From NCBI GenBank assembly GCA_948567375.1, contig OX419755.1, positions 61,081,945 through 61,145,944 of the forward strand: 64,000 bases of DNA, in the 5' to 3' direction. The notes beneath the pieces were generated by a model. It was given only the letters and a program-made list of their open reading frames with translations. It was not told where the DNA came from and made no database searches. The translations under genes were made by a program, and so were the position numbers. Positions 9,073 through 61,380 of this stretch are shown here, piece after piece. Each line of letters opens with the position of its first letter. Position 1 is the stretch's first letter. This stretch comes from Lunularia cruciata. Lineage: Eukaryota; Streptophyta; Marchantiopsida; Lunulariales; Lunulariaceae.

Positions 9073-9168
<96 letters not shown>

Positions 9169-21046: not shown

Positions 21047-21083
21047 CTATCCTTTAAACATATTCACCATTCCGACTAATCAG

Positions 21084-21200: not shown

Positions 21201-21209
21201 ACTAATCAG

Positions 21210-22342: not shown

Positions 22343-23106
22343 TTTTTATAACTGGCACCTTCTGTCAGAACCCCCAGCTTTGCCAGTACCACTGTTGTTG
22401 TTACTCGTCGCGTTCTCAGGCTCTGGGTCCTTTATCAGCAGCGGGGAGATCGACATCAACTCCTCTATCACTTATTCTTTCGACCACCATCCGTTCCTTG
22501 CAAGCGGATCTAACGACCTGTACTTCACATCCCGCTTAGGCAAGTGTGGTGACAGCTTTCGTTCTGTTCTTGCCGTTTTTCACTGGCATTTTGATCATTG
22601 TTTTGGTCACAGCATTGCGTTAGGTTTTCTGATTCGATCAGGTATGCAGGGAGGAATGAGGATCCACGTCCAGCTGCCTGATCTCTTTGCTACGAGCTGT
22701 TGATCATGCTTTGGATGGAATGCATTGCGTATCTTGGGTTTGGCTGTTGGATTTGGTTTGCTTTGAACGGGGCCGCGCTGGATTGTACGATCTAGCAACT
22801 CTTGTCTGTTTTGTGCTACCGGAGTTCGATACGTACCCGGAGCTGGGCTAGACTCCCATTGACACGATTAGAGTCGGACTCTAATCTCGAGCTGCAGCTG
22901 AGGATCCTCAGCTGCAGCTCGTATGTTCTGGTTTGTTGAGGAACCTTGTTCTTCTGTCACTAGATCGTTAAGCTTAGTTTCTGGATAGCGTGCTCATCTT
23001 GGATTGTGGGCCTCCGCAATGCCGATGCATCCTGTAAGACTCTTCGTGGATATATTCTGGCATTGCGACATTAGTACTGAGGTTGTTGTCTTCTGACTAT
23101 GTGCAG
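22343..23106 (+). promoter_or_regulatory. likely core promoter, leader exon and leader intron of methionine synthase
   Basis: A TATA-like TTTTTATAA lies at about 22343-22351, followed by a C/T-rich leader. The start codon exon has a clear 3' splice site 17 bp before the ATG (GTGCAG ending at 23106), so the 5' UTR is spliced. The donor is not certain: CAG|GTATGC at 22642 is the best candidate, and GCAAG|TGTGG-like text near 22543 is weaker. Leader introns are common in highly expressed plant genes. A 122-codon frame at 22335-22703 lies within the leader and is probably not translated. Confidence 0.5.
22866..22921. repeat. 21-bp hairpin next to a 34-bp perfect palindrome in the leader intron
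   Basis: 22866-22886 has 10-bp arms GATTAGAGTC / GACTCTAATC around one G. Directly after a single T, 22888-22921 is a perfect 34-bp palindrome centred on GGATCC, with arms containing CTGCAGCTGAG. Both would form stable cruciform or RNA stem structures. Origin and role unknown. Confidence 0.95.
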
Positions 23107-23123
23107 GACTTTCCTCGAGCAAC

Positions 23124-26100: not shown

Positions 26101-27196
26101 AGAACAGCTCCAAGGTTTTGTTTTCACGGCCAATGGTTGGGTCCAATCTTATGGATCTCGTTGCGTGAAGCCACCAGTTATTTTTGGTGATGTAAGCCGC
26201 CCAACAAGCATGACAGTTTACTGGTCTAAGTACGCCCAGAGTCTCACCTCCCGACCAATGAAAGGAATGCTCACCGGGCCAGTGACTATTCTGAACTGGT
26301 CTTTCGTGAGAAATGACCAGCCCAGATCTGCCACTTGCCTGCAGATTGCCCTCGCAATCAAGGAAGAGGTCGAAGACCTCGAGGCCAACGGCATCACCGT
26401 AAGTTCCACCAGATTGTCGTGCTATGCATAGTCATACTGCAGAGATGATTCGCCTTCATATGGTGAAGTTGTGAGTCTTTGTTGTAAGTATCTCACGTTC
26501 TATGTTTCTGCGTACAATCAGGTCATCCAAATTGATGAGGCCGCTTTAAGAGAAGGTCTGCCACTCCGCAAGTCCGAGCAAGCATCTTACCAAGACTGGG
26601 CCGTCCACAGTTTCCGAATCACCACTTGCGGAGTGAAGGACACCACTCAAATTCACACCCACATGTGCTACTCCAACTTTAACGACATCATCCACTCTAT
26701 CATCGACATGGACGCCGATGTCATCACTATTGAGAACTCGCGATCTGACGAGAAGCTGCTCTCTGTCTTCCGTGAAGGAGTGAAGTACGCTGCCGGAATC
26801 GGTCCAGGAGTCTACGACATTCACTCCCCACGTATCCCACCCACCGAAGAAATGGCTGACCGTGCTCGCAAGGTCAGCAGTCTTACAGATTTTACTTTAC
26901 GACCTTCTGAATTTTGTGTATGAAACGGTGTACATGTATACATGTTACTAGCGTCATTTGTTTGAGTCGCGCTGGATTGTTTTGCGAGTTGGATCGTCTG
27001 ATAGACTCGTAGTGATTCTTTCCTAAGGAGGTGGTGATCGCATGCGCAGATGTTGGCCGTGTTGGAATCCAAGGTACTTTGGATTAACCCCGACTGTGGT
27101 TTGAAAACAAGGAAGTATGCTGAAGTTGTCCCGGCTCTTACTAACTTGGTTGCTGCCACCAAGCAATTGCGTGCGGAGTTGGCTGCCGCCAAGTAA
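23124..27196 (+). CDS. metE: cobalamin-independent methionine synthase (5-methyltetrahydropteroyltriglutamate-homocysteine methyltransferase)
   Basis: This enzyme makes methionine by moving the methyl group of 5-methyltetrahydropteroyl-triglutamate to homocysteine with a zinc site. Coding exons: 23124-23470, 23577-23664, 23769-23896, 24090-24278, 24593-24795, 24912-25075, 25389-25469, 25586-25752, 25868-25973, 26075-26398, 26522-26872, 27050-27196. They total 2295 nt, or 764 residues, with all introns GT-AG and all phases consistent; plant cytosolic MetE is about 765. The N-terminal half starts [17 protein letters not shown] and has no transit peptide, so a cytosolic form is likely. The C-terminal catalytic half carries [19 protein letters not shown]-type [12 protein letters not shown] and the zinc ligands His646, Cys648, Glu670 and Cys732 ([20 protein letters not shown]). 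All key residues are present, with no stops or frameshifts. Plants call this gene MS1 or METS; metE is the bacterial symbol. Identity is very secure; the 5' leader is less so. Confidence 0.97.
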
Positions 27197-27708
27197 AGTT
27201 CGCAGGCTGACGTAAATTGAGGGTCCTTTGAGGTGCCCGTTTTAACATCATTCATGAGTTTAGAGGTCTAATATCCACTACGGTAGTTTAGCTTAGTTAA
27301 CAAAGTGGGCCTGGGGTACACCAGTGCCTGGTTGTGGTGTGGTGGTGGATGATGGTTAGTGATTCCCAGAATCGCCTCTTCCTTAACCACATGTCGACAG
27401 GTGATATTATAGCCCCTTGAAAAGGGAACCATTCTTGTTTTAGATAGGTTCGTATGGCAGCCTGACATACTACCACGAAGCATATTCACGACTGAACGTT
27501 TGTAACGAATTTCATTCATGGCTCTTCGCCTTCAAGAAAAATCTATCACATCTTAATCATCATCTCCACTTGGTAGTGTTCCACTTTGATTCTTGATCGC
27601 ATGAAATTGGGGATGGTAGAGTTGCTTGAAGGATAGGCAAGCGGAACCTTCTTTGATTTTTTTCCAAGATGTCTCTATTGGTAAATTGGTAAAGGATTGA
27701 ATGTGTGA
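27197..27708. other. 3' UTR of methionine synthase and short intergenic gap
   Basis: Follows the TAA at 27194-27196. The 3' end of the transcript was not fixed. No other gene seen. Confidence 0.5.
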
Positions 27709-27716
27709 AGTGAGTG

Positions 27717-27831
27717 ATTCCTTTTTTCGATACTATTGGGGCTTAGCGCCGATTTACCCTCTTCTTTTCCTTGTACGGCTTGATGGAGTTTTCCCATCCT
27801 TCTGGTTTTCACACGCGGTCGTGTTTCTCTC
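27717..27831 (+). mobile_element. small retroposon-like repeat, copy d
   Basis: A 115-bp copy flanked by AGTGAGTG (27709-27716) and AGTAAGTG (27832-27839), a probable 8-bp duplication with one change. Contains CGATACTATTGGGGCTTAGC, CTTGTACGGCTTGATGG, TTTTCCCATCCTTC and CGCGGTCGTG. Confidence 0.7.
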
Positions 27832-28107
27832 AGTAAGTGAAATGCGACGGAATGAACAGAGTAATAACATTCCAGGACAAGAGGAAACCCAGCACGAACG
27901 TCGTAAAGAGAACTGTGTACGGAACCTAATGGAAAACCAGTATAGAACAAGAGCATTAAGGACATAATCAGAGTTCTGTTTACGGGCAGCTTGAACATGC
28001 ATCATATGAAATCCTAATGTGGCCCAGTGTTCTTACTTAGCGTTGTCTATTCCGCTTTAGTGTGCAGTTTTTCTCTTCTGAAACGCATCCTTAGTGGTTG
28101 TAACAAG

Positions 28108-34357: not shown

Positions 34358-36528
34358 TTTAATAAATAGAATATTGATTTTGTTTCTAACTTTAATTTCC
34401 TTAGTAATTTAAAATCCAAGTTCTGACATTTTATCTAACGACGAGTGTGTTTATAGTTTTATACAGGTTATCAATTTTGTTAAGGCAAGAATTTCTTTTA
34501 TTCTAATCTTTGGTTCTTTTCCGGTAGGTCTTACTAGTTTGAACACGGATCTGGTTTGAACAATATAAAGATGAGAGATATGCATATAGGTGATGAAAAT
34601 GTGGGTGTTTTAATTTAGAGAGTCTCAGCAGTTAGTATCTAATCATATGGAGTTGGTTGTTAGTAGGTTATGAAATAAAATAATTGGTTGTAAGTAGGTT
34701 ATTAAACTATTTGTGAAACACCATGTTTGTATGTTACATGGGAGTTTCACAAACTAGTATCTATTCATATAATATTGGTTGTCAGTAGGTTATGAAGTGG
34801 AGTGTAGTATCATTCGATATTATTGTTCTCTTTATCCTAGCTTGAGATTCACTTAACTTGAGGGTCGTCTAAAATAATGTGCGATATGCCATGTTTGTAT
34901 GTCACATTTGAACTATTTAGGATATCCATGTAAGGAACAAGATCAGAGCTAGATATCCAAGATCGATTACACAGGTGTCATCCATTTTATTTTTGATTTT
35001 TCTTTCCCACATATTGATTGAGTTGTGTAAGCGGTTTATTGATTGAGTTGTCCAAGTGGGTTTTAACCTAAATACCTCACATTTGAGGATTATCGAAGAT
35101 ATGTTTTTGGATCTGTGATTTTCCTAAATTTTCCATGCGCTTTCATGGTGATGTTAATCTAAGACAAATTTTTCGTTTAACACTCCATTGATTGATATGC
35201 GATCTTATAAATAAACTATTATTTCTCTGATTCTTCTTATAATATCTTTGTTATACTTAAGTAATGGAAGGAATAAGGAAGAGAATTATGATTCTAAAGC
35301 TTTTGAGCTAGGTTTAACCATAACTTGACCTAAATTTCCTAATAAAGGAATCCTAGATCCATTAGCTTTTATATGTTTTTTTTGCCTTATGTGCATCCTT
35401 TTTATATGCTTGAAAGACTAATTTTTTAAGAATGTAAAATTATCTATTCTTTTAAGATTATAAACTACTCCACAGTCTTCATATGTCAAGTCAATGCTAC
35501 CTATTTTGAGATTCATTCATCGTCAAAGTTCAACCAATACAAATTTTTCCCTTCTATATACCAAGCCAAATTGATATGCAAAGTCCAAGGTGGAGTTCTT
35601 ACAATGATGTAATTGAGAATTTCATTTTGGGTTCTCTTACTATTGTTGCATTGATTTTTAGAGCTTTCTTCTTATCTAGCCATATAATTTAGAAAGGAAT
35701 ACCTCTTACTTAGTTATTGCTAAACTTGGGTAGTTGTAACTAACTCCAACCTACCTAAAAAAATTTAGTATAGTATTGGGCTTAGGTTTAGGTTATTAGG
35801 GTTAAACTTCACTCTAGAGTAAGGGTACTCTAGAGTGTTAGAATTTAGGTAGCTAACACACACAAATCCATGGTTAATCAAATATCACTAGCAATACTTA
35901 CTTGGAACGTTTGCATGTTTATGCCTTAGCTTTTCTGGCTAAACACACAAGTAGCTAAGTATTCTACTCAAAACATCACCTACTCAAAACATGTAAATGT
36001 AAATCTTCACCGTTCTTCATAGGTTCCTTAAAATTCCCTATGGTTGATTTGCAATTGGATTTGACCTAAGTATATCACTAAGGTACTCAATACTAGCTAA
36101 GTAAGACCACCTTCAAGCCCCAAGATAAAGAAAGCTTAAGTTAGTTATAGTTTACCAAGGCTAATGCACTTTTCATAACAATTGCTTATCACTTCCTTTT
36201 ACCCTAAATAATCAAATCTTGTAATTTTCTATCTTCAAGGTAAACCTATTAATTTTATTTACAACATTAGGAAAAATCACACGTATGAGTGAATCCATTC
36301 CCTTAAAGAAATGACTATAGAAAATAATAAAAGGTCTGAAAAGTGGAAGTTCAAAATATAGGGTGTTAAATCATTAGATGTTCAGCAAAATCTAGCATGG
36401 AAAGATGATAAGGACCAAGTCTGGAAAAGGAGAAATTGGGCTTCTTTATTGTTTATATTTTCTTAAACACGTTGATACTATATATGATGGTCCAATTCTT
36501 GTTTAATAATTAATGATGATGGAAAAAT
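34358..36528. other. AT-rich intergenic sequence, no gene seen
   Basis: Contains a diverged duplication at about 34627-34800: TAGTATCTAATCATAT and TTGTTAGTAGGTTATGAA recur near 34752 with changes. Otherwise nothing was recognised. Confidence 0.45.
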
Positions 36529-36965
36529 TGTCATGCCATTTGTAGTGTCACTTCTAGATTGCTCGGACATTGGAGTTGCAGTGATAAAAGCTAGAGATAT
36601 TTTAGTAGTTACCTGTAGACTACTTTCTGACGGACAGATTTCATGTGTTGGGGACTGATTTCATGGTGGGGCCCATCATCACTTTGCTCCGTTGGGTGTG
36701 TTGTTAGCAAGACAGTTAGGGTTTTAGCCCCAACTCGAGTCCAAGTGTATACTTTTGAAGTGCAGCTCCAAAGAACTCACTGCTCTGATGTTGAGCCTTC
36801 GAGTTCTTGGCTATGGTGAATAGAGGCCGGCGAGCGTCACCTGGATTCTCTTAGCTAGAGTGGGTGTGGCTTGACTATAACTAGTGCCCAATTGTTGGCA
36901 GTTTATGGAGTGACAGACCAAGTCTTGATTTGAGTTGAGTTAATTCGAGTGATGTAAAAAAATTG
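36529..36965 (+). repeat. 5' LTR of the PHD-gypsy element, 3' end missing
   Basis: Starts TGTCATGCCATTTGTAGTG and matches 45875-46310 and 19442-19880. The last ~105 bp of the LTR (the block ending GACGTATATAC...GACA in the other copies) is absent, and with it any recognisable primer-binding site. Confidence 0.82.
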
Positions 36966-40509: not shown

Positions 40510-41050
40510 GGTCTATACACCTCAGTGAGTCTTATTAGACTCTGGTGCGCAACCCCTTATGTTGGGGAAGGCTATAGTTATCGATCTAGGGTTACGAAAG
40601 ACCCATGTGTAAAGCTGTCCATTTCAGATCCATACATCTCTAGGAGGTGGTTAGACCCAATACATCACACATGGAGAGCTAGTTGTTCAGATTCAGCCTG
40701 GTCATCCAATTGATAGCTCGGTGGTGAGAGCTCAGGCTATTGCGACAATAGTTGAGTCATATGATGTGCTAGTTGAGGGAGTAGTTTTATACCCCATGGG
40801 TTTCAGTATTGACTATTGGGAGGAGACAACCTCATATAGACCAGGTTGGTAGTCTGGTGAGGGATGAGTATGTTGGCTACCTATACGTTTCAATAGTGGC
40901 AATCTTGGCTCACTACAGTCCAAGACCATAGCAACATCAATTTCAGCTTTTAATGGCACAGTTACTTGGCCTGGTGATTTATTGGAGGGGAATAACCATG
41001 CATAGGATACTCTTATACCAAAGGAGATCACTCAAATTTGGAGTACGAGT
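40510..41050 (+). pseudogene. aspartic protease remnant
   Basis: The catalytic triplet is intact: VLLDSGAQPLMLGKA, with DSGA at 40538-40549. A TGA lies just before it, one base from a CGA codon. Downstream text to about 40850 (ELVVQIQPGHP, VVLYPMGFSIDYW) fits a gypsy protease with broken frames. Confidence 0.78.
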
Positions 41051-42779
41051 GGAATTGTTCCATCTACCTTGGATGTTCCATTGTGGAGTTCAAAGGAGGC
41101 ATTGTAGAAACATGCATATCGGTTGGTGCAAAAGGCTTGGAGTGAAGCCTTTGTACCACTAGGAGATGAGTGTGAGGATGAGCCTCTAGAGTCGATTACC
41201 TTGATACCTCTGGATACCACACTCATTGCGTGGTAGTATCCCATAGAGGGAGTATGTCTATTGGAGTTGATTGGTGGGATTAGCACTAGATAGCTCACTA
41301 CAGGCGGGTATAAACGTACAAAGGTACTTGTATATGGAGAGGGATGAGATTGCTAGGCAAGTCTCTATACATCATGTGACACACTTGGCTTATTGGTATC
41401 TTGAGTTATTATCAATGTCAACAATTAGGGGTTACCGGAAGGCCCTACGAGTAGATATTTCCTTACTAGGGGCGCATGATATGGAGAGACATGGGCTTGT
41501 TCATTTGGTGATTTTGGGAGGGCCATGTTAGAGACATATACGTGCTGGCCAAATTTTGGGTCTTGAAGATCCCCGTTTTAGTATATTTTGGGAGATGTTA
41601 CGGACACTACAACATCTCTATGTTCATCAGTATGTTTCTCCAGCTTATATTTTGGAGAACATCCCTTTGATGGGTGATTCTTGCATCCGGGTGGTGGTGA
41701 GTACACATCATGCCCATTCTTGGATGGGACTTGTTGTCTTGTTAGATGCAGCCAGAGTGGGATCACAGGCTCATTGTCTTCATCTCTGGTGGACAAACCT
41801 CTTACCTAAAAAGGTTTTACAATGCTCTTATGACGGGATTCAACAACTAGACTACATCATTGTTGATGACATCTTGGATGTTGGGTGTGTCAAATGGTGG
41901 TAGTGGTTGATAGGTCACATATGCAGTGGTGAACCTAGTTGGACAGCCGAGAGCCACTTTTCCCACACTCATGATTTTCCCAAGTTCTCATGCTTTTTGA
42001 GAAGGAGGTCTAGGATTGGTTTGGGACTCACAATTATAGTAGTTGGTAGAGCCCAACGCCAATGAGAGAGAGCGGGTGATGGGTTTTTTCATTGGTATTA
42101 TTGCTGTTCCAGTAATGTTAGATGCATCTAGGCGTTAGGTGTTAAGGTCAGGCTATGGACTTGAATTGTTTGACCTAGATTGTGAGCCTTGGCTTGGCAG
42201 AGTAGCGTAGGATGCACTTGATAGGCATCACCACTTGGACACTTGTGAGCCTTGTGCCTATCAAGACAATTCAGGCACATGTTGGGGGCAATGGACCGAG
42301 TGGTCATTGTATTCTTGGGACACAACAAGTAGCTAGTAGGGAGAGTGTTCTACTTGGAGTCCATCCAAGTGAGCGTGGTCTACTTGGATTACACCCTTGG
42401 TCTACTTGGGATGTAGCTAGAGGATGTATGGAGCTTGCAGCCAAATCAAAGGGATTTTTTCACACTGAGGTTTGGAACTCTAGTGGTTGGGAGCATGATA
42501 TTACTGCTCCCAAGGATCCAGTGTAGCAGCCAGTCAGTATGTCTTCCTCTCCTATGACAATTATAGAGGATACTTAGGAGCCAGATCTTGGACCCAAGCT
42601 TACAAAAGAGGAAAGATAGAGAGTTTGGAGGTTCTTGAGGAGCTACACGAGTTGTTTTACCTTTAATATGAAGGATTTGGGTGCTTTGAAGGGACTTGGT
42701 ATAAAGATTGAGCTGACTAGCAATACACCAGATTTCCAATGTCCTTAGTAACATAGTGATATGGACATTGATTCAAAGT

Positions 42780-43400
42780 TGGAGTAGTGCTCTTTTTGAG
42801 GCTGGTTTGGTGGAGATTCCACATGGAGAGTATGCATCAGGTACAATGATGCCAGCCAAGAAGGATATGCATGGCAACTGCACAGATAGGCGGATGTGTG
42901 GAGATTACCATCCTATCAACCAATAGACTAGGGTTGATTGGTATACCATGCCTACACCAAAGGAGATCTTTGATGCAATTGGGCATGCAAAGGTCTTTAG
43001 TACTTTGGATCTTCAAGCAAGATATCATCAATTGTCAATCAAAGAGGAGGATAAGTCCAAGATAGTATTCTAGGCATTGATCCTCACGGCAGAGATGTGT
43101 TATATTAGTAGAGGTTCTTACTATTTAGATTAAAGAATGCTCCTGCTAAGTTCCAAAGGGTCATGGATAGGATCCTAGCTAGATTGGATTTTGCTCGGTG
43201 CTATATTGATGGCATTTTGGTCTATAGCACTATTGTGGTGGAGCATGAGAGATATTTGTTGGAGGTGTTTGAGAGGTTGAGATCTCATGGACTCAAGTTA
43301 CATCTTGGGAAGTGTAGGTTCTTCCATGAGCAAGTTGAGTATTTGGGTCACACTATCTACCCTAGAGGACTTGGTGTTTAGAAGACCAAGGTGGAGGCTA
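42780..43400 (+). pseudogene. reverse transcriptase remnant
   Basis: Recognisable blocks are CGDYHPIN at about 42898-42921, FSTLDLQARYHQLSIKEED (first catalytic Asp) near 43000, and a clean 72-codon stretch 43163-43381 beginning MDRILARLDFARCYIDG. The YxDD active-site box reads YIDG at 43202-43213, so the second catalytic Asp is lost. KLHLGKCRFFHEQVEYLGH is typical of gypsy RT ends. Confidence 0.92.
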
Positions 43401-44010
43401 TTGCACGCATTCCTTGACCTACAGATGTGAGCAAAGTGTGAGCATTCCTTGGGGATGCAAAATTTTATTGCCACTATGTTAGAGGATTTAGTGCCATTGC
43501 TAAGGCCTTGACAAAGCTGACCAAGCTTACATAAGAGTGGTGTTGGGAAGATGACTAGGAAAGAGCTTTTGTAGAGCTCAAGGAGAAGTTGACATCTACT
43601 CCAATTTTGAGGAGACAAATTAGAGGATGACCATTTTAGGTTCACATTGATTGGAGTATGTTGGGGCTTGGAGCAATGCTCACGCAACATGATGATGAGG
43701 GAAAGGAGTTTATGGTGGCCTATGCTAGTCGCTCCAACAATTAAGTAGAGCAAAAGTATAGTTCATATGAGAGGAAGTGCTTAGCAACAATTTGGGCAAT
43801 AACACATTTCCAATGTTACCTATTTGGTAACCCCTTTACTCTCATCATTGATCATCAACCACTCAAGTGGTTGATGGAGTCTAAAAAGCTTTTAGGGGAA
43901 GCTTGCACGATGGGCTTTGATTTTACAAGAGTATGATTTTATAGTTATTCATAGACCTGGAGTGGTGGTTTGTGATGCAAATGGGTTGAGTAGAAACCCA
44001 TGTCCTAGCC
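43400..44010 (+). pseudogene. connection domain and RNase H remnant
   Basis: After RT the text RIP...PTDVSKV, AFLGDAKFYCHYVRGFSAIA and DWSMLGLGAMLTQHDDEGKE follows, then VAYASRSNN and DHQPLKWLMES, all in one main frame with stops. These are the standard gypsy RNase H landmarks. It ends in YDFIVIHRPGVVVCDANGLS near 43930-43990. Confidence 0.88.
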
Positions 44011-44379: not shown

Positions 44380-45250
44380 AGTTTACATGCTCATGAGGAG
44401 CTAGTACATTTTGGAGTAAAGCGTACATATAGCTTACTCTAGAGTTATTATTGGTGATATGGTATGCAGATTGATGTACACCAATTTGTTGGGAGATGTG
44501 TGGTTTGTGACCAAGTTAGAGCATCATTTAATGCTTTTACACCATAATTACACCCATTACCTATCATGGGATTGGGTTATTGTTGGAGTTTGGACTTTGT
44601 TAAACCTTTACCATTGATTATGAGACATCATCCATATGTTTTGGTGATGGTAGAGCACTTCTCCAATTGGATTGAGTTGGTGGCACTTCTTGACAAGTCC
44701 AATAAAGGGATGGCTTATTTGTTCCTGGATCGGGTTCTTAGTCATTTTGGTGCACCAATTGAGGGTTTGACTAATCAAGGTATACAGTTCTTGGGGGATT
44801 TTCAAGTCTTGTGTGACAAGGCTTTGATTGATCATTTTACTACCTCCTAAGATCACCCTAAGGTAGATGGCTTAGTAGAGAGAGTGGTTCAGACGGTGAA
44901 GAGAGGATTGTAAAAGTATGGTTTGCAAAGAGGCCACTTGGGAGATTGGGATTTCCAGTTACCTTGGTTGGCCATGGGCTATCGGTTCAGCCGGCAACCC
45001 TCCTTAGCATCTTTCTCTCCTTACTTTCTACTCTACTAGATCCAGATTTACCTACAACCATTTGTTGAGATGCTACTTCAGTTTTGGACTTGGATGATCC
45101 AAATGTATGGATGAGCACATGTTCTCAATGGGTAGAGATCTTTCAAAGAGAGATGCCAATGACCTTTGAGAACTTGGCAATTGCTCAACATAGAGATACC
45201 TTACGCTATGCTACTATTTGAGGAGGAGGTTATAGACCCTTGATCCGGCA
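44380..45250 (+). pseudogene. integrase remnant
   Basis: The zinc-binding part shows HFGVKRTYSLL and CVVCDQVRASF (44405-44535). The catalytic core has its first Asp at 44593-44595 (WSLDFVKPLP) and its Glu at 44878-44880 (DGLVERVVQT). The second catalytic residue is Asn (LTNQG, 44773-44775), one G-to-A change from Asp. A TAA at 44848 and others break the frame. Confidence 0.9.
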
Positions 45251-45442
45251 ATTTCATCCAAGAGACTAAGTATATCTACAACAGACAACACCAATGACAC
45301 TTGATGTTTCTAAAAGCTGCACTATCTTGAGAGTGCATGAGGTTTTGCCATCTGGAGTCCTTGTGTTGGAAGGACATGATGGAGTTGTTTGGAAGTATCA
45401 TGTGCGCAATTGTGTGTCATGCCACCATTGATGTAATTATGG

Positions 45443-45478
45443 ACCTCAAGCTTGCATGTACAAGTGCAAGCTTGAGGT
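45443..45478. repeat. 14-bp inverted repeat with 8-bp spacer
   Basis: Perfect arms ACCTCAAGCTTGCA (45443-45456) and TGCAAGCTTGAGGT (45465-45478), spacer TGTACAAG. It sits exactly between the integrase tail and the PHD finger. Confidence 0.95.
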
Positions 45479-45617
45479 GTATGTTATGTGGCTCTTCAAG
45501 TGCAGATGCTACTATGTTAGTCTGTAATAGCTGTTCAAGAAGATGGCATATGGCATGTATGACTCCTCCCTCATGGTAGTTCCTAAGGGATAGTGGTTAT
45601 GTCTTAGATGTACTTGA
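45478..45617 (+). pseudogene. PHD-type zinc finger closing the gypsy polyprotein
   Basis: In one frame: CMLC (Cys at 45478 and 45487), 11 residues, CNSC (45523 and 45532), four residues including Trp, His at 45547, Cys at 45556, then MTPPS. After a one-base frameshift near 45568-45572, the next frame reads MVVPKG, a TAG, then WLCLRCT and TGA at 45615-45617, giving the last C-x2-C (45600, 45609). This is the complete Cys4-His-Cys3 pattern of a PHD finger, with the usual Trp two residues before Cys7. PHD fingers in host proteins read the histone H3 tail. Here it occupies the place a chromodomain has in chromoviruses, so a targeting role is a reasonable inference. The copy is dead. Confidence 0.83.
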
Positions 45618-45786
45618 CCTATAGCTAGTTCATCCTTTATATAGTATAAATTGTAGGCATGTGATTAATGATGTGGCTCGATAGCAGCCATCCTCCTGAT
45701 CTTTGCCCATCATAGGGTATACTATATACTTGGGGTAGATGGCTATCTGGAGTTAGAGGGACCTACTCGCTCGCTAGGGGGGCGAT

Positions 45787-45872
45787 TGTGGCACTTTAGA
45801 GTCTATGTATGACTTATGTGTGAGTTATGTGTCTATACTATATGTTGTGTAGTGATATATATATGCACAACA
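45787..45872 (+). repeat. extra copy of the LTR terminal block
   Basis: TGTGGCACTTTAGAGTCTAT and following match 46317-46421, the last block of the 3' LTR, and lie directly after the purine tract. See the 3' LTR entry for what this implies about LTR limits. Confidence 0.85.
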
Positions 45873-45874
45873 AC

Positions 45875-46421
45875 TATCACACCATTTGTAGTGTCACATC
45901 TAGATTGCTCAAACACTGGAGTTGCAATGATAATAGTAAGAGGTATTTTAAGTTACACGTAGGCTATTTTCTGACGGTCAGATTTCGTGTTTGGGGTACT
46001 GACTTCATGGTGGGACCTATTGTCCCTTTGCACCGTTGGGTGTGCCATTAGCGGGACCGTTAGGGTTTCAGATCTAGTTCGAGTCCAGGGGTATATTTTC
46101 AAAGTGCAGCTCCAAAGAGCTCACTTCTCTGATGTTGAGCCTTTGAGTTTCTAGCTATGGTGGACAGAGGCCGGCCTGGATTCTCTTAACTAGAGTGGGT
46201 GTGATTCACTGATTACTTGACTGTAATCAGTGTCCAATTGTTTGTAGTTCATGGAATGACATATCAAGTATTGATCTAAGTTGAGTTGGTTCGAGTGACG
46301 TAAACAAACTGACTATTGTGACACTTTAGAGTCTATGTATGATTTATGTGTGAGTTATGTGTCTATACTATATGATGTTGACAACAATGTATATTGTGTA
46401 GTGATGTATATACATACGACA
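45875..46421 (+). repeat. 3' LTR of the PHD-gypsy element
   Basis: Aligned with the solo LTR 19442-19982 along its whole length, ending CATACGACA. Because a purine tract lies at 45776-45785 and a second copy of the terminal block at 45787-45872, the true LTR could instead begin at 45787 (TGTGGCAC), giving 635 bp with a direct repeat at each end. I cannot decide from one element. Confidence 0.82.
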
Positions 46422-47356
46422 AACTAGTTCATGGAATCTTAGCCAAATAAAGCATGAGATTGTTTTAATTTATGAGTAGAACGGTAATGCATTATCTTAA
46501 TTTATGAGTAGAACAGTAATGCGTTATCTGTTGACCATGAAGATCTGGAATTAATAGAGTAAAAAAAGATTCACCAAATCTTTTATAAAACAATCGCAAG
46601 TCTCTCCTACTTTTGAGTCTCTATGACTTTAATTGCCATGCTTTATCAACCTTGATATTTGAGCTTATTCCCAAAATAGATCGAGTTCCAAACTCACAAT
46701 CCTTCATGAGGAACATTATGTAAGGAATGAGGGCAGAATTGATTATAAAATATGTGTAACGATACAACTATTTGATGTTTTGGTTGCAGCTAGAATCTTT
46801 TATTGTATAGATGCGACTTTTTCGTTTAAGGCTTTTGAGCGTTTGACTCTTTTCATAGTCCCAGTCTTCAGTAGAGTCTCCTTACATTGTTGTTCTAAAC
46901 CTTGATTCGTTTCTTAAGACTCCCTACAACAGAAACAACTTATGTGGAAATGTCGCAACGGACAAGACTGTAGGCGCAAATTTGAAGCTAATCATGGAGG
47001 TTATTTACGTTAGTGACTATTCCTTCAATAATCCGCACGTGAGGTTGTTGGAACTTCTTCTCAAATAAAGTCCTCATCTCTGAACTAAAAATGATCCGGC
47101 ATTCTTCATAAAGAGTCAAGTCAAACACCTTTCCACTACATAATCTAAGACATATGTCTTCTTGTGGAAATTCGCAAGACGTGGTTGCCACTTGGCGTCC
47201 ATACTTTTGTTCTGGCTTGAAAATAGATCATTCTAAACGTAAACCCTATGCTCAAAAGGTCAATGTCTCTACTCCATTGACTCTGAATACGATTTGTTTT
47301 TGTCAAGCTTAATCAGTTGACTTTAAGAGCAAACTCGCTGATTGATACTTTGGAGA

Positions 47357-51600: not shown

Positions 51601-53496
51601 GAAAGAACTTACCCGGTCTCGGAAAAGATCCTGCTACAATTTTCTAATAAAAAAGGACCAATGTCGTGGATTACATTTCTTGAGGTGTCCTGCGCTATAA
51701 ACCGGACATACTTCTGAATTTTGTGGAATATGATGCAACTTGATTAGAAATTCAGATTTTTCTGCTTACTTTTCATTTAAGAAAACGAATATGTTCATCG
51801 TCCATTCAGTGCAACGGTCGAAAGTATAGCACGTTTACACATCTGTGTGAACCAAATTATACTCTAAATAAGTGCAATAGATCCCTATAACACATTCAGT
51901 AGGGACAATTCCGGAGAAGAGTTCTTAAATATTTGCTTATAAAGTATCTATAGTGAAAATATCTCCAAAGCGGTTTCGCTGCTATGTATAGTTTATACAA
52001 ATTCAGGGACATTTTTCATTAGTCTTCGACTAAGTGACCTGGGTTTCTCCCATAAGTTCAATGATCGTTATCATAAACTGACAATCAGGTTACTTGGTGA
52101 TATCTATGGCGTTTATAAAAGGATGTCGTGTTTTCTTCACCAGTTATCTAGCTTGTATTAATTTTAATTTCCCGTATTGAATATATAACTTGCAATTATT
52201 CGTATCTTTTATCCCGAGCTGTAAAATCTAGTGTATGCACATACATACTATACTTCTCGCTTGAATAATCCAACCTTTAATTTAAAGACAATGCAACCAA
52301 AGAGTTTCTAAGAAAGCTTAACTTGCATAATTGCTTATCTCGAGACGAGGGACGGACTGTATCATCAAATTCGTGAACATGAAAATTAAGCATCTGATGT
52401 TTGTATGCAAATGAAAGTTTTTCTCGGACTTCCTTGATGAACTACAGTAGATGAAACTCGAAACGAATGAACTGAGATGCAATGGTAGGTCACCGAATCT
52501 CTCATGATCTCAAGTAAGACGTGCGGGTAAATGAACAGTCTGAGGTAATGTACCTTGGTTGGTAGGTTAAGGCCGTCATGTGGCTATCCAGTTGTCAAAC
52601 GATGTGCATATTTTAATGCCCACACGAACCGTGGTGAAGGTCAGAGGTTGACTTGGGTCGGGTTGGAATTATTAGTAATGGATGAAGAGAAACCGGGACC
52701 GGATACCGGTACAGCGTGGACGGAGCGGAGGAGTCCGTCACAAGGGGCAAAGAACGAGGCGGTAGGGGAAGACGAAGGGGAGGGGAAGAGACCACCCGGA
52801 ACCAAATCTGGTGTGAATCGAGTCGGGAGAAAGAGAAATTCTATGGCGCGAACATTTATGGAGCAGATCGAGTACAGATTTGCCTCATACACCCTTGTAT
52901 TACAGAGATCAGTCTGGCGGAGCGGGTGTGAAGGGCTGCGATGATTGCAGGAGTTGTAGCGAAGTGGACATGAGCAAGAAATGTTGGAATGATGTCAATC
53001 GAGTAGCGAAATCAATCTGTCAACCAATCGTGAATTGCTTCGCTGCTGCTGGTCACGGTTCGCGAAGAAGGTGGGGGGTCTTTCGGATGTGATGGTGGTG
53101 GAATGCTCGAAGCCTTGGTAAGCAGCGCTTCTACAGATCACGTGGTATGAAATTCCTTGTCACTGCGTCGTCCTGAATAATATTATGTCTGGCTGTGCTG
53201 AGGCTGATGGATGGATGGGCAAATGTACACCTGGAGAATAAAAATGATAGTAATACTGTACACCATACCTTCTTGCTCATGCAATCTCATCCACGCCGAC
53301 GAGTAAGTGAGAAACAGGCTATGTTCTTCTTCCATAAGGGCTTTTATGGGGAGGACGCCAATCTTCTCTTTTGGCATGCGCGCAGGTCAGAAGGAATGAA
53401 GAGGGGGGAATGGGTACACTAACAAATATCAGTCCTTCTGTCTAATTTGAGTATTGCCAGAGCGTTCCAAGGATTTATGATACGCAGATCTGGAGA

Positions 53497-53540
53497 GGAG
53501 AAGAAGAGGAAGGAGAAGAAGAAGAAGAAGAAGAAGAAAA
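53497..53540. repeat. (GAA)n purine tract upstream of the DUF3133 gene
   Basis: Interrupted GAGGAGAAGAAG then pure GAA units, about 230 bp upstream of the start codon. A similar CTT-rich tract is at about 53966-53990 inside intron 1. GAA/CTT tracts are common near plant 5' UTRs. Confidence 0.9.
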
Positions 53541-53765
53541 TGAGGAGGGGATAGAGCAATCTCTCGGGGCTTAAATCGAGACGTAGAAAGATGGATGGCT
53601 AGATAGATAGGCTGGATGACTGGCTGGTTCTCATCAACAGATTTTGAGTGAGTGGAACATTGAATTGACGACGCGCATGTGGTGCTTGCATCCTTCAGGG
53701 AGGAGTTGGGCATGAGACATAAGAACTCCATCTCTAGGACCGAGCAACAAAAACCGGGTTTCACA

Positions 53766-56700
53766 ATGCCCGCCAGGATTGTTCAGTGCCCGAAATGCAG
53801 AGCTCTACTCCAAGAACCACCTCCGGGCAACCCCTATTACCAATGCGGGAACTGCTCCACAACCCTTCAAGGTTCGTTCAGTTTACTTTTACTTCATTCA
53901 CCACACGGTTCTGCACGTTTATTCGTCGTGGACGACGAATAAACGAGGAAGAATCATGTCTTGTTGTGCTTCTTCTTCTTCTTCTTTTTCGTCGCGTCAG
54001 GATTTTGTCAGAAAGAGCCGCTACCGTAACTTAACTTACATACTGTTTGCGCTGTACGGTTTCACTTGGGGGAGGGAGGACTTTTCTCTAAGACAGTGTA
54101 CTGTAGTCGTCATAGTTTATATTAATACCGCCAGTGGGGTATGCATCTGTTCGCCTCGAATGAGTTCCTTCTTCTGTGGAGATCGATCCTTCCCAATCCA
54201 GTCCACGTGGTCGATTCTGATATACATATACGATACGTTCGTTCGTTTGTGACGTGAACGGAACAGCTAAGCATGCCACAGTCGACTCTTCCTCTGCTTC
54301 GGTGGTGGATGAGCGGACGAGGGGAAGTAGTAGCAGAAGTTCTACTACTACCAAGTCGGAATCGTCGTCGGGAGAAATGAATGAGAGAGTTGTGGATGAT
54401 GACGGGTCTACATCAGCAGCGTCATGGTCGCCTAGTAGGAAAGATTCTTTGTGTTGTGGTAGTAAAGGAGGAAGAGGAGTGCCCGAAAGACTTCCACAAC
54501 GACGACGTGGAGGAGGAGTATGTGAAACAATTGTGAAGCAAATAAGCTCTGGTGCTGCTGCTGAGATGCAATCTGATCAGGGAGGAGGATACAACAACAC
54601 TAGTGGTAGTAGTAGTAATATTAGGGATCGTCGAGGAGGAGGAGGAGGGCCTCCGGTGGTGCAGCACTCACACGACGATAAAATACTGTCGTACATGCAG
54701 TTGATGAGAAACGAGGACCTGGATTCGACGCAGGTTGCGTTAGAAAGTTCCTCGGGAGCTGATTACATCAGTAGAAGAGGTTCGAAGCATCAGCAGGAGG
54801 CCGCGGTACCGCCTGGAGGAGGAGGAAGGTGGTCTTCCCCCGGGGGAGGAGGAGGAGGAGCCGCAGCAGATTCTTCATTCGATGGATACAGTCACCAACA
54901 GCGCCCGCCGGGTAGAGCAAACCATAATGGAAGCGATGTAGCTTTCCGACCTCAGCCGGGTAATTCCATCTTGAAAGGAGGAGAGTTTCAAAGACAGCAG
55001 TCGAGTTCACAGCTCACACAACAAAGTAGTATATATGAGACGAAGGAGGTACCTGACATGACTAGTACTACTATTACTCCTCCTGCTTCAGCATCAGGGA
55101 GAATTATGAAGCTCAGGTGGGAAACACGTCCAGAAAGTGTAGAAGAGCATCAAATTTCCGCGGGGGCAGAAGTAATGAACAGGGGAGGAACAGGTAACGA
55201 GGATCGACCTCATGAAGATCGCCAATCCATGAAGGAAACAACTTCCACGGAGAGAAACTGGAGGGTGCTTGGTAGTCGACGGCAGGACAGACGGAATAGT
55301 GATGAGAGGAATGTACAGTTTCACCTTTCACGCACTCAGTCAGACGGGTCCGAAAAAAGCTGTGACATGTATGACAATCCTGCCTATACCGGAGACTACG
55401 AGAAGAGCGAAACCTCGTCGACCATGGACGATGTGGATACCAGTGAGGGAGTGGGCGGGGGCCGCTTTTCGCCTCCTCCTGATTTGCGTCTACCGCGGGA
55501 TCTGCGCGCAGGCATTGCCAAATCTCGTCCCAATCTGCCAAGGTCAAATCCCCCAGGCACTAGCGGAAGAAGTAACAGTAGTGTCTATTCTGAGGAGAGC
55601 AATCCTCGCACCGCTCAGACGCCGACAGAACTGGACACTTTGGACAACAATCCTCCACTCCAATTCGAGAATCTAACTCGCGATAGTCGGAGGCAGAGTA
55701 GCTTTGATGCTGCCCAACTCAATGGACCACGGGGTGGTGGTTTTGGAAGTACCAGCAGCGCCAATAGCTCTCCCGGTGTTCCGGCCCCGGAGCCAGGTTC
55801 GTTGCGGAAATCATCTAGTGGTGATTTTATGGGCATGACCGCAGAGCATGGGCAGATGCACAACAGGGGCTCATCTGATCCTGGGACCAGCTTGCAGCAA
55901 GCCAATGCTCGCCCCCCACCCCAGCAGCTACCCTACCAACAACAACAACAGTGGGTAAACAGGCTTGTGCAACAACAAACTTTAAGTCCTTCGGGTTCTT
56001 TCTCAAAGAGCTCTCCAAGTGCTCGCCCACCAACGCACGTACCGTGGTCTCAAAATACATCGGGATCGAACCTACCCTCTCAAGTAGAAGCTCCCAATTC
56101 TTCTCGGCCTCCATACGGTAACTCTTTTTCAGTACAACAATCAAACCATCCTCCGACGAACGAAATGCTAGATTCAGCAAGCGCACTGACCCAAGTCCCA
56201 CCTAAACAGGGAATTTATCCTTCTTTGCCTCCACCGGGTTCTCTGCCACATGTGTCGTGCCAATATTGCCGAACACTACTTGCCGTGCCACCCAACCTTC
56301 CAGCTCCAAAGAAAAATTTGCAGAAGATACGATGCGGGGCGTGTAATAGGATCTTGACATTTTCCGTCCCACAGCCTTTGGATTCGTCTATTTCTAGGTC
56401 TGAGGTTCAGCAGCTAGGACAGTCTTTGTTTGCTTCCAGTCCCGACGCTCAAATAGATATCAATCCAGGTTACAGGGCGCGTGGGAGATCCATGAGCTCT
56501 GCCTCTGATGAACCGAGAAGAAGTGGACGCAGGTTCTCAGATTTATCTGATAGGAGTCACACCATCACGAGAAACGACTCCCTGGGTAGCAGTGAAATGC
56601 CCTCAGATGACGAGCTAGTGGAGAGAGCCCGATTGATGAAACTTGATTCCTTTTCTACGCCGAGTTCTGATACAGCAAGCTACTCCGAAGGATCACCATC

Positions 56701-58510
56701 ACGTTTTGGGCGCTCGTCACCTGGTCCTCTGTACCCAAAAGCTGCAGGCTCTTGCAGACTCCAACCAGAGGAGAGAACTCGTTTTGCGAATCACCTAGGA
56801 CCAGGGGTTAAGCGCCTCGAAGACCATGTTACAAGCAGTGACTCCGAGAGCGAGTCACTTCATCACCATTTGCCATCCGTCAGGTCCCCTACGATGGAAG
56901 GACTTCATCATCATGGGCACAGCAATTCTCCTACTAGAAATTTAAATTCTCCGCCAACACATTTGAATTCGCCCTCCTCTGTTCATGTCACGGGAGAGCA
57001 CAAAGAGGCGGTGCACGAGCAACCGAAGCTTCTGAACATCGCTATGAAGGGGATCAGCAAGATCCGAGAGCTCACTCACAAGACCCGAAGCAAAGTTAAT
57101 GTAAATGGCATCGCGATCGCGGAACCAGTTGTGAAGAAGGCAGAACTACAGGCGGGGCCCATCCAACCGGGCCACTACTGGTAAGCACCGTTTGCCTGTA
57201 CTCTGAGAGCTACTTTTAGCAGATCCCTCTTATCATCCTAGTTGTTTCATGTTCATATGTCCCTTGCAATCTCACAACTTATGTATTACACCATAGACAA
57301 CCATTGGAAGCACCTTGCTGCTAACCCCTGTATGAAGAAATAGGCATGCTTACCTCTCTATGTAACGGACAGTTATGAGAATTTTCACTGTGTTACTGTC
57401 CAATGTCAGAGTCAATACGGTCAGACTTGGGTATGGAACTGGGTTGTTTACAACGGATTCTATATTCTATTACTCAATATGTTTCCTGCAATCTCACATC
57501 ATTGAACAAATCTGAGTCGGGAATGTCACCTGACTGTCGTGTACCTTGTGCACTTTCTCCTTTCCTCAGGTATGACAGTCAAGCCGGATTCTGGGGTGTA
57601 GCTGGAGGACCATGTCTTGGCATCATACCTGTGAGTGATGATTTTTGGGGGTTGAGCTTCTTGTGTATGTATAAGAACACAGCCAAGAACATATATCTTT
57701 TTAGTCATAGGCTGTGTCGTTCCTAAAGTTATGCATTGTGGTTCTGCAGCCCTTTATCGAGGAGCTGAATTTTCCAATGCCAAAAGATTGTGCTTGTGGT
57801 AAAACTGGCATCTTAGTGAATGGAAGGGAGCTTCACAATAAGGACCTTGAAATACTGGTACAGCGTGGACTTCCTACCCAACCAGGGAGGGCCTACAGGA
57901 TAGAGATAGATGGAAAAGTTGTGGATGAACAAGGGACAGTGATCAAATCTCTCGGACGACTCGCGCCTACGTAAGATGCCTCTAACTCCGTTCTCTTAGA
58001 TTTATTAATAAACGAAATACTTGTGAAAAAGCTGAGAAAGTAACTGTTCTATCTACTCTTTTTAGAATCTGACAACTTCCCGTTCGTCAAGCTTCATTTC
58101 ACGTCTCCCTTTCCGGTTCCTTGCATCATAATCATAAACTGAATGGCAAAGTCTTTCGGAACTCTTTCCTCTCTGCATTGGTCTCTTCTATTCGCCGCAC
58201 CGCTTGCACAAGCGCTTACATTTTCTCTTTATGCTTGTCCTTGTTATTGGCGGTCGAAAATTAGTTGTTTGAGATTGTTCGTATTTTTCATAAAAGGAAA
58301 CTTAGTAGTTATAGCTTGTCCTAGTTAGTTGCAGAATATACTTTAAGTGGATATCCCTGCAAAATTTGCTGCAGGCTGCAGTAACGCCTATTAAGAGACT
58401 TCGAAGGCACAGTTGTCCGTAGTGCATCATCTGACACTTGCTTGTATAACTTTTTTATCATCAGGTTAGAGGAAAGAGGACGTGGAGGAGGCATGTACCC
58501 GAGAGCTTGA
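53766..58510 (+). CDS. DUF3133 zinc-ribbon / extra-large-G-like protein (EDR4 superfamily)
   Basis: Exons: 53766-53871, 54267-57180, 57570-57630, 57750-57970, 58465-58510; 3348 nt, 1115 residues, phases agree. The N-terminus (MPARIVQCPKCRALLQEPPP) is a zinc ribbon with Cys8, Cys11, Cys27 and Cys30, as at the start of Arabidopsis EDR4-like proteins. Residues 40-690 are low-complexity Ser, Gly, Gln, Pro and are probably disordered. The DUF3133 zinc ribbon follows with Cys700, Cys703, Cys725 and Cys728 (CQYC, CGAC). The C-terminal ~110 residues hold GHYWYDSQAGFWG, GPCLGIIPPFIEE and VNGREL, the block shared with the N-terminal half of extra-large G proteins. From memory, Arabidopsis At3g61670 and At2g46380 carry the extra-large G-like label. 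EDR4 acts in defence and membrane traffic; the role here is inferred only. No stops or frameshifts. The 2.9-kb second exon is striking. Start chosen for the conserved MxxxxVxCPKC opening. Confidence 0.9.
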
Positions 58511-58734
58511 CAGGAGCTGGAACAGAAGCTAGTACTTGATACACTTTAGGATTCAAGCACAGCCTTCCCAGCTTGCCGCGATTGTGCGGCTACTTTATGT
58601 ACTTATAGGCTGGACTTGAAATGGTGATGAGCATTAAAGAGGGATTTTATTACACATAACGTGTCGTTCTACCACCAAGCAGTAGACAATAGATGAAATT
58701 GTTCCGCTAACTTCCACTCTTATGTTTGAGTACC

Positions 58735-59956
58735 ATGGCCCAGTCGATTCCTAATAGACGAAATCCACGAGCTTCAAGACTACCACGTTACCTCGTCGTA
58801 GGGTCCATGTGAGTTCCTTTTTGCCTACCATCTCCAGTTTCCTGCGTCTCTTACCATCAAACTCTTAGGTTCTGCTCAGAAACGCCGAGAACGAACTCTG
58901 CCAGTGTTGACAACGGTAAAGGTGTGACGATCCAGCGGCTCTACTCATTTCAATATACTAGTATTTGGGAACAAGGCTTTCTGCTCGATATGTAAATGTC
59001 CAGCATTTGAGTCTTCGAGTGTAAAGATCACAAGGGTCCAGAGGCACTACTCAATCCAGTCTACCAAGTCTTTTGAAGCGAGGTTTCCTGCCAGTAGTCA
59101 CTATATGTGAATGACCAAAATTGTAGTCTTGGAGCGTAGGAATATAATGACTGTCTGTGAATCGTGGTGCAACCACTTACATATACTAACTCTACGGATT
59201 TTCGTTTGCAGGTAGGACTCTTCTTTTGACGCCGCCGCAGAGCGACAATTTGCATAAAAGCAAGTCTTTCTTCAGGGCTTGGATTTAAGGTTGACCTGAT
59301 CACGAGTTCTGAGTCAGGCCATGAGTGAAGATGGATTTAGCTTGAAAAGGTCGAGTGAAGTCTATCTTGAACAGGCTATCTAGTATTTCTTGCGTAATCG
59401 AAGCTTTTGGTACCACCCCCATGTTTGTTCCCACTAAAAATAAGTCAGCGTTTTACCACCATCTGCAGTGCTAGAGTACTGTCCTTCGTGTTTGCTGAAC
59501 ATGAGAGTCGTTGTTACACATCGCCTGATTTCTTATGCATAAGATGCAAAGGGAAAGAGCTGTATAACAGGCTGAAGTCGTTTGGTCTTTCACATGGCGA
59601 AGAAGCTCCGAATAAAGAAATTGGTTTTCGCATCAAGTTGTCTCATGGCACCCACTTGACAAAAGTACAGTGATTTGGCCTGCATTACTAGTGTTAGCTG
59701 TTCCTTTCCTTATGTCACAATTGTATGGCAATTAATGGGTTATTCTTCGCAGGATCTGCTGCAGCGGATTTCGCTAGTGATGGGGAAAGAGAGTAGCTGG
59801 TTTATTTTGCGCACCACTGATTTGGAAATCGTGAACTTTGGGCGTAAGAAAATTTTTTATCGCGCAGAAACTCCGATTGCGTCTCACCACTTGCTCTACA
59901 CGCGTAATCCACACGCGTTGAAGGCCCGTGGTTGTTTTGTGAACAGGGCGTCTTGA
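58735..59956 (+). CDS. unrecognised multi-exon gene, possible organelle-targeted product
   Basis: The ATG at 58735 is in strong context (ACCATGGCC). Exon 1 is 58735-58808 (donor GTGAGT), and 58869-58915 is a likely exon 2. Together they begin MAQSIPNRRNPRASRLPRYL, rich in Arg and Ser and poor in acidic residues, like a mitochondrial or plastid presequence. The last two exons are well supported: 59469-59664 (after CATCTGCAG, donor GTACAG) and 59753-59956 (after TTCTTCGCAG, ending TGA). Their joined frame gives 132 residues including GFRIKLSHGTHLTK|DLLQRI, then HHLLYTRNPHALKARGCFVN. Exons between 58916 and 59468 are not resolved; one may begin at 59218. I do not recognise the family. It starts 225 bp after the DUF3133 stop on the same strand. 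Confidence 0.5.
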
Positions 59957-60058
59957 TCTCAAATGAGTTTTCATACACGTAAACATTTCATATGAAGTCT
60001 GAAGCATTTGTTCGTTCAAAATGTTGAAGCCATCTTCATTTGCTATCTCGAATATGAG

Positions 60059-60929
60059 GATGAAGCTTGGCTGTCACGAAACCAATGGACGATGTTGGAG
60101 ACGTCTATAAGGTTTTGTGGTTCATCGGTGACATCAATTGTGTTCATTATTCACATTAGTGGACAAATTGTTTTCACCATCTCATACATCACTTCCATTT
60201 ACATTTTATTCATCATCATGGGTTGTTTGTTTTTGGTCAAGTTTTTTAGTTTTACTTAGCAGAAGTGCACAAATACACGAATATATAATATAATATGGTT
60301 ATTTATTATTTCAAATAACATTGTTAATATGGTTATTTATTATTTCAAGTAACATTGTTGGAAGCAACCATATATAATATAGTATGGTTGTTTATTATTT
60401 CAAGTTGCGTTGTTGGAAGCAACCGAGTTTGCCTTGGTACTCATGAGTTTTTGAACAGAAACTTGGGACGAGGAGTATTGATAATTGTTCAGCTACTTCG
60501 GCACTGCGTGAGGCACATATGAAGTCGTTGGTGGTAATTGTTCAGCTACTTCGGCACTGCATGAGGCACAGATGAAGTCATTGGTGTTATCATTGTCAAT
60601 ACTCCTCGTATCGAGTTTCTGTTCTAAAACTCATGAGTGCCAAGGCAAACTCTGTTGCTTCCAACAGCGCTACTTGAAGTAATAAATATCCATATTATAT
60701 TATATATGCGTCTATTTGGGCACTTCTGCTGTGTAAAATTGAAAAACTTGACCAGTAGCAAGCATCTCCAGATGATGAATAAAGTGTAAATGGAGGTGAA
60801 GTATGAGATGGTGAAAACAATTTGTACACTGATGGGAATAATGAGCACACTTGATGTGACTAGTGAATCACAAAACCTTTTAGATGTCTCCAACATCGTC
60901 CACTCGTTTCGTGAAAGCCAAGCTTCATC
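60059..60929. mobile_element. foldback (long inverted-repeat) element
   Basis: Left arm 60059-60482 is matched in reverse by 60596-60929, with a loop of about 113 bp. Matching words include GATGAAGCTTGGCT, GGACGATGTTGGAGAC, TTGTTTTCACCATCTCATAC, GTTGGAAGCAAC and ATGAGTTTT. The left arm is about 90 bp longer owing to extra copies of a TTATTTATTATTTCAA unit (60295-60405). The arms differ at roughly one base in ten. Frames in it are incidental. It could be a Foldback-type DNA transposon or a locus that makes hairpin RNA. Confidence 0.85.
60482..60587. repeat. two-copy 53-bp tandem repeat in the foldback loop
   Basis: TAATTGTTCAGCTACTTCGG starts at 60482 and at 60535. The tail of the unit, TGAGGCACAGATGAAGTC and TTGGTGTTATC, occurs again twice outside the right arm at about 60954-60980 and 60991-61020. 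Confidence 0.9.
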
Positions 60930-61190
60930 TGTGCCTCACGACTTCATTTGTTGTGAGGCACATATGAAGTCATTGGTGTTATCAAGTCGAGTGAGGCACC
61001 GATAAAGTCGTTGGTGTTATCGTGGAGGTTTACTATGGCCGCCTTTTGCTTCCTTCAGTTGTTAGTGTCTCCGGACTCCAAAGTCCATAGCATTGGGTGT
61101 GATATACTTTATATATCTTGTCCTCTTATGCTTCGCTCTAGTTACACTTCTACATTTAGATCCGTTTCTGCAACCACATCCTTCGAGCAT

Positions 61191-61380
61191 TCTTGTTTTG
61201 TTCCATTCCCCTACTATTTCACTCCCTAGTCTTTTCCCTTCGATCTCGGACTCTACTATTTCACTCCCTAGTCTTTTTCTTGTTTTGTTCCATTCCCCTA
61301 CTATTTCACTCCCTAGTCTTTTCCCTTCGATCTCGGACTCTACTATTTCACTCCCTAGTCTTTTTCTTCCGATCTCTGAC
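61191..61380. repeat. 87-bp minisatellite, two full units and a partial third
   Basis: TCTTGTTTTGTTCCATTCCC begins at 61191 and again at 61278. Each unit itself holds two copies of CTACTATTTCACTCCCTAGT. As 87 is a multiple of three, the repeat stays open in several frames, on both strands: a 223-codon plus frame (61093-61764) and a 133-codon minus frame. Neither is recognised as a gene. Confidence 0.9.

Follow-up and report, generated by a model that had tools for sequence, protein, structure and literature searches.

A 64,000-nucleotide stretch of the Lunularia cruciata genome (assembly GCA_948567375.1, contig OX419755.1, positions 61,081,945 to 61,145,944; hereafter the window) carries a decayed Ty3/gypsy retrotransposon with a PHD finger behind its integrase. 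This segment would be the C-terminal domain of the integrase in a Ty3/gypsy lineage found in green algae and early land plants, and in living copies it would bind the tail of histone H3 and take the place of the chromodomain; a probability of about 0.6 can be given to this reading. Coordinates are those of the window, and all parts of the element lie on its plus strand. Related proteins are designated P0001 onward.

A degraded PHD finger behind the integrase

The window finger retains the Cys4-His-Cys3 ligands with PHD spacing, albeit in a degraded copy. Its first six ligands (45478–45558) lie in one stop-free frame that runs from 45331 to 45579, with the stop at 45577, and comprise CMLC at 45478, CNSC at 45523, His at 45547 and Cys at 45556. 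The last C-x2-C (45600–45611) falls within W-L-C-L-R-C at 45594–45611 in the neighboring frame, where one stop directly precedes it at 45591 and a second follows after a single residue at 45615, giving a terminal segment (45594–45617) of WLCLRCT and then a stop. When the unbroken part alone was compared with Pfam, its end missing, the PHD family (PF00628) was matched at E 6.1e-7 and 29.8 bits, above the cut-off of 24. Both the ligand pattern after the integrase and the one-base shift before the last C-x2-C, at the coordinates an earlier note had read from the letters alone, are therefore borne out by these frame positions and the profile match. A six-frame scan finds the half motif once in the window, and 0 of 100 windows generated by a first-order Markov model contain it, which rules out chance as its source. 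The open reading frame (ORF) containing the PHD is 62% identical to P0001 and 55% identical to P0002.

The frames of the copy are broken twice, between the integrase C-terminal domain and the PHD and then inside the PHD. The first break, which the earlier note had not recorded, combines a frame change with a stop at 45429. Because the frame of the C-terminal domain, that of 45243, stops at 45429 and the PHD lies in another, the link between integrase and finger has been lost here. Many further stops occur throughout, and the window copy is dead.

Recurrence of the fusion in relatives

An 82-residue query retrieved two short proteins, one of which, P0002, covers both the integrase C-terminal domain and a complete PHD. 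An X-padded query led to P0003 of Sphagnum fallax, with an integrase core (rve) and a PHD, as the sole pass among 27 candidates. With P0003 as the query, 318 proteins were found, and the domain counts cover the 120 listed, P0003 included. Forty-eight of these carry rve plus PHD, another 30 have a PHD and no rve call, and 42 have no PHD call; the chromodomain (PF00385) was called in 0 of the 120. Named hosts with PHD relatives are Sphagnum fallax, Calypogeia fissa, Marchantia polymorpha and Klebsormidium nitens, and Chromochloris zofingiensis can be added by inference from the label Chrzof1 of P0108. The listed Marchantia proteins with a PHD have no rve call, but P0026 and P0028 start inside the integrase and P0017 joins part of it; P0086 of Riccia ends before the point where a PHD would begin.

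When 122 proteins are aligned jointly, all eight ligands are present in 58, at least six in 81, and all eight together with the DDE residues in 21. These last 21 favor a true fusion over the alternative raised in the earlier note, of intact relatives that lack the ligands or have a stop ahead of the finger. Two examples are P0032, a predicted protein of 638 aa that combines RNase H, H2C2, rve and PHD, and P0004, predicted at 591 aa; each has the DDE residues along with the complete set of eight ligands. In other gene models, P0003 for instance, portions of the integrase appear to be left out by comparison with P0004, so the single protein there is a prediction. Taken as predicted products, these relatives show that in bryophytes, Klebsormidium and a chlorophyte the PHD is fused to the integrase immediately after its C-terminal domain, which supports the earlier proposal that the finger belongs to the integrase, at the position of the chromodomain in chromoviruses.

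A host PHD exon or gene fragment lying beside the integrase by chance would sit well with the broken frames between the two in the window, but the recurrence of the fusion in 48 of the 120 listed proteins, from several hosts, rules out a stray host finger, and the single ORF of P0032 speaks against it as well; the probability of this explanation is close to nil. Related-locus searches found no relative in viral contigs with P0002, the reverse transcriptase piece of the window and three further queries, nor in genome contigs with P0002.

The linker between the two domains is short and mostly fixed. From C-x-P-C-H to the first PHD Cys there are 20 residues in 42 of the 47 proteins that fit the pattern, compared with 52 nt from C-x-x-C-H to that Cys in the window copy. 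The protein ends no more than 15 residues past the last PHD Cys in 36 of the 47, and eight (P0080, P0087, P0097, P0098, P0108, P0110, P0112 and P0116) extend for 95–316 residues after the PHD. Pfam found no family at cut-off in that part of the eight; a UPF0167 match just under cut-off overlaps the PHD of P0097. Distances in the integrase core and in the PHD correlate with each other (rho 0.415, n = 30 of the 122 proteins, 0 of 999 permutations); this test was run after a stricter set (rho 0.478, n = 19, 0 of 999 permutations) and a looser set of 52. A tree of the integrase from 90 of the 122 proteins and the window piece, built with no outgroup, places the window near P0037 among bryophyte sequences, without starred support, with Klebsormidium in two groups and Chromochloris beside other long-branched rows.

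An AlphaFold2 model of P0004, made from an alignment of 110 of the 122 proteins, has a mean predicted local distance difference test (pLDDT) score of 71, with block means of 84–90 in the PHD stretch (residues 541–590); the model of P0003 from three rows (pLDDT 32) is uninformative. Outside the PHD, the P0004 model matches the integrases of prototype foamy virus (PFV) and Ty3. The Foldseek and VIA rows shown are all integrases and give no match for the PHD fold on its own; the comparison has no bearing on the PHD itself.

What the finger may read

Within M-L-(L/V)-C-D, Asp is present in 69 of 73 relatives, and the residue two before the His is Gly in 70 of 73. This second position is where H3K4me3 readers place the Trp of their aromatic cage, and it is Arg in the window copy. 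A PHD profile was built from 17 hand-picked fingers, and the nearest solved fingers, judged on 60 of 122 match rows, were those of CHD4, KMT2C/D, WSTF, KDM5, ATXR5 and KAT6A, together with PHF12, DPF, BAZ2, PHF21A, UHRF1/2 and AIRE. Many fingers of this set bind H3 with K4 or R2 unmethylated. Reference titles in PMC9640981 name CHD4, BHC80 (PHF21A) and UHRF1 as binders of unmethylated H3, and that paper associates K4me3 with aromatic cages and unmodified tails with polar pockets. The residues of the finger fit readers of the unmodified H3 tail rather than H3K4me3 readers, and the reading of methylated H3K4 that had been suggested earlier seems unlikely.

In living copies, the PHD would bind the N-terminal tail of histone H3, with a preference for unmethylated K4, and this contact would tie the intasome to nucleosomes without active-promoter marks. 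The finger would thereby do the job of the chromodomain in chromoviruses, and it is plausible that it steers integration.

Several observations weigh against this reading. The 42 of the 120 listed relatives without a PHD call are one, although 28 of these end too early to have any letters in the PHD columns. P0095 stops about 30 residues past the integrase domain and may be a genuine case of a missing finger. It is one of eleven among the 122 aligned proteins that have letters in the C-x-x-C-H columns and fewer than five PHD ligands; the tails of the others end at once, stop inside the finger (P0022, P0024), look frame-shifted (P0038, P0103, P0118) or are misaligned (P0086). In the looser set, which includes frame-shifted rows, the correlation between core and PHD distances is weak (rho 0.18, n = 52, 14 of 999 permutations). 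At the position of the Asp in relatives, the window copy carries Asn. Some K4me0 readers use an acidic residue before the first Cys, and none is obvious in this finger. Finally, plant VEL PHD fingers are described as binding no H3 (PMC9640981).

Were the finger instead a reader of H3K4me3, it would direct insertions to active promoters, and the PHD class does include such readers, RAG2 being an example (PMC3520747). This was rejected on the Gly at the cage Trp position and on the profile neighbors, since no such reader appears among the 60 rows judged, and it is very unlikely. The finger could also be part of the integrase and serve structure, or protein or nucleic-acid contacts inside the intasome, without any reading of histones. 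The short, fixed linker would suit such a role, as would the existence of a plant class of PHD fingers with affinity for negatively charged polymers and none for H3 (PMC9640981), but the residues of the finger follow those of H3-tail readers closely, and a purely architectural finger is on balance improbable, if worth keeping in mind.

Anatomy and terminal repeats of the element

The remaining pieces follow the Ty3/gypsy order of reverse transcriptase, RNase H and integrase. The reverse transcriptase piece (43112–43381) matches RVT_1 at E 1.1e-15 and the RNase H piece (43745–43936) matches RT_RNaseH at E 6.2e-15. The zinc-binding domain and catalytic core of the integrase (44386–45036) contain several stops; rve is matched over 44548–44850 at E 2.9e-7 with 31.1 bits, under the cut-off of 32.6, and tblastn over 217 aa gives 80% identity to P0037 and 77% to P0004. 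The SH3-like C-terminal domain (45243–45428) matches P0002 and P0003 in its raw frame, has an internal stop at 45267 and ends in C-x-x-C-H; the corresponding stretch forms beta strands in the predicted model of P0004. Upstream, a broken segment at 40532–40850 (LLDSGA ... ESYDVLVEGVVLYPMGF), read in raw frames, is presumably the protease, judging by its DSGA motif; the N-terminus of Marchantia P0017 is similar to the end of this segment, and Pfam gave no match at cut-off for the piece at 40655–40852.

The C-x-x-C-H that closes the integrase C-terminal domain lies at 45411–45425, and its C, C and H occur together in 72 of the 122 relatives. The motif might be a further metal site beside the PHD.

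The repeats of the element are laid out as A-coding-B-A-B, an arrangement absent from the earlier note. Repeat A1 (36523–36965) stands alone at the 5′ end, where only B matches of chance length lie beside it, and the 3′ end carries B1 (45785–45868), A2 (45869–46311) and B2 (46315–46422, with its end point set by eye). A1 and A2 are identical at 360 of 431 ungapped positions (84%), and B1 and B2 at 85 of 92, with gaps of 19 and 1 nt. A simple pair of long terminal repeats (LTRs) of one structure was rejected on this arrangement. A second copy is represented by a solo A-B remnant at 19442–19978 (right end by eye), identical to A2-B2 at 453 of 547 ungapped positions; the alignment extends to 20016, and no B1 lies ahead of it. 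Recombination between A1 and A2 would leave just such a solo A-B copy.

B1 and B2 (92% identical, ungapped, within 45785–46422) are closer to each other than are A1 and A2 (84%), a difference that could reflect repeats of different age or gene conversion within the adjacent pair. A 63-bp tandem unit at 19323–19451 takes in the opening bases of the solo A-B repeat, as though insertion had been followed by duplication of the flank together with the beginning of the repeat.

The window copy looks old, because A1 and A2 have diverged to 84% identity and CpG in the element stands at 0.28 of expectation, compared with about 0.8 in the gene-bearing regions 21000–28000 and 52000–60000. CpG is equally low (0.27) in 1–19000, so the depletion is not specific to the element.

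A possible Dnmt3-like methyltransferase

Between protease and reverse transcriptase lies a segment (41249–41900) that the earlier note did not mention. In raw frames, interrupted by a stop at 41529 and by a shift of frame, it has the motif order I (GGIST), IV (GGPC), VI (ENIP) and VIII (AHCLHLWWTNLLP), which we take to be the C5 cytosine methyltransferase motifs in Dnmt3 order. Smith-Waterman comparison of two window pieces with human DNMT3A gave z 2.4 (57 of 2000 shuffles reach the score) and z 3.4 (22 of 2000), and the Marchantia homologue P0017 gave z 8.2 (0 of 2000). A PDB search with the P0017 piece returned DNMT3A in all 10 of 10 matches, all at E 0.65 or worse.

The sum of this evidence is suggestive, not proven, and the segment is probably a degraded Dnmt3-like methyltransferase. 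Other results count against that assignment and would be expected if the PHD anatomy is right and the element is otherwise a plain gypsy element with a PHD: Pfam finds no family at cut-off in the methyltransferase pieces; PDB searches with the two window pieces find no DNMT, one returning an unrelated glycoprotein (E 1.1) and the other nothing; and, beside the modest z values of the single pieces, the reverse transcriptase piece of the window scores as high against DNMT3A as the better of them. The motif order, the strong score of P0017, its uniformly DNMT3A matches, however poor in E, and the A-B-A-B repeats like those of KnitGypsy-Dnmt3 all argue the other way, and an element without the methyltransferase is rather unlikely.

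Relation to known systems

KnitGypsy-Dnmt3 of Klebsormidium nitens (de Mendoza 2018, PMC5890265) has Gypsy domains with Dnmt3 in the Pol ORF; the paper gives the A-coding-B-A-B pattern for DIRS, and one of its legends gives it for KnitGypsy-Dnmt3 as well. Compared by description, the window element also has Gypsy domains and this repeat pattern, with its Dnmt3 part only probable; the host differs, being a land plant rather than an alga. The main text of that paper has 0 mentions of PHD. From K. nitens, P0023 and P0074 combine rve with a PHD and belong to the same integrase tree, and may or may not be copies of KnitGypsy-Dnmt3. The window element is apparently related to KnitGypsy-Dnmt3 and would extend that kind to a land plant. 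It shares its repeat layout with DIRS, as described, but has a DDE-type integrase.

Chromoviruses (Chlamyvir, Tcn1, CRM, Tekay, Reina and Galadriel; Neumann 2019, PMC6317226) also carry a domain of chromatin-reader type at the integrase C-terminus, a chromodomain where the window element has a PHD, and the main text of that source has 0 mentions of PHD. Ginger1-9_HM (PMC2836005) likewise has a PHD C-terminal to a Gypsy-type integrase, but is described as a DNA transposon of Hydra with Ulp1 in addition. A retrotransposon PHD is also reported in ORF1 of the CR1/L2 long interspersed nuclear elements (LINEs; PMC4120745), with a proposed aid in host-genome targeting; these are non-LTR elements, and the finger lies mostly in ORF1. 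The RAG2 finger, as presented in PMC3520747, steers a recombinase complex through PHD-H3 contact, but is of the H3K4me3 type and sits on a separate protein. Among the titles and abstract openings listed by searches of open-licence PMC papers, none reports a PHD at the end of a Ty3/gypsy integrase.

Other features of the window

A decayed chromovirus on the minus strand (3242–9065) has an LTR-like pair at 3242–3647 and 8672–9065, 73% identical, with integrase-type similarity at about 4250–4954. Its ORF at 3702–4301 (minus) matches SH3_Tf2-1 at E 4e-11 and then, under cut-off, a chromodomain at E 0.0025; this weak match occupies the position of the PHD in the PHD-bearing element. On the plus strand, a methionine synthase catalytic-domain exon lies at 26432–26923 (PF01717, E 1e-52), and a 987-aa ORF at 54221–57184 contains an EDR4 zinc-ribbon domain (PF11331, E 2e-10). 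Zinc ribbons of the EDR4 type are plant-specific, and this ORF is probably a plant gene exon. Inverted repeats at 60059–60929, with 267-bp arms at 85% and a palindrome-like 60369–60708, are perhaps a foldback element, and a tandem 92-bp repeat occupies 61190–61368.

Biological implications

The presence of the same integrase tail in less damaged relatives, from green algae, liverworts and a moss, makes it probable that this is a device of long standing for choosing insertion sites. If so, plant LTR retrotransposons would have a second, separate solution to chromatin-guided integration, with relatives in Marchantia and Klebsormidium.

DNA-methylase-encoding transposons are said in PMC6338049 to be absent from land plants such as tracheophytes; Marchantia P0017 and the window bear on that statement, since they suggest a spread at least as far as bryophytes.

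More tentatively, a single polyprotein of this chlorophyte-to-bryophyte Ty3/gypsy lineage could unite a Dnmt3-type de novo methyltransferase with an integrase tail whose finger reads H3 lacking methylation at K4 (H3K4me0), and do so between DIRS-like ends despite a DDE integrase, although the combination as a whole remains doubtful. With a Dnmt3-like enzyme of their own, new copies might conceivably land in unmarked chromatin and be methylated early. The ADD domain of host Dnmt3 reads H3K4me0. If the combination is real, the lineage would have rebuilt the reader-writer logic of host Dnmt3 by separate capture, to enter and seal silent chromatin.
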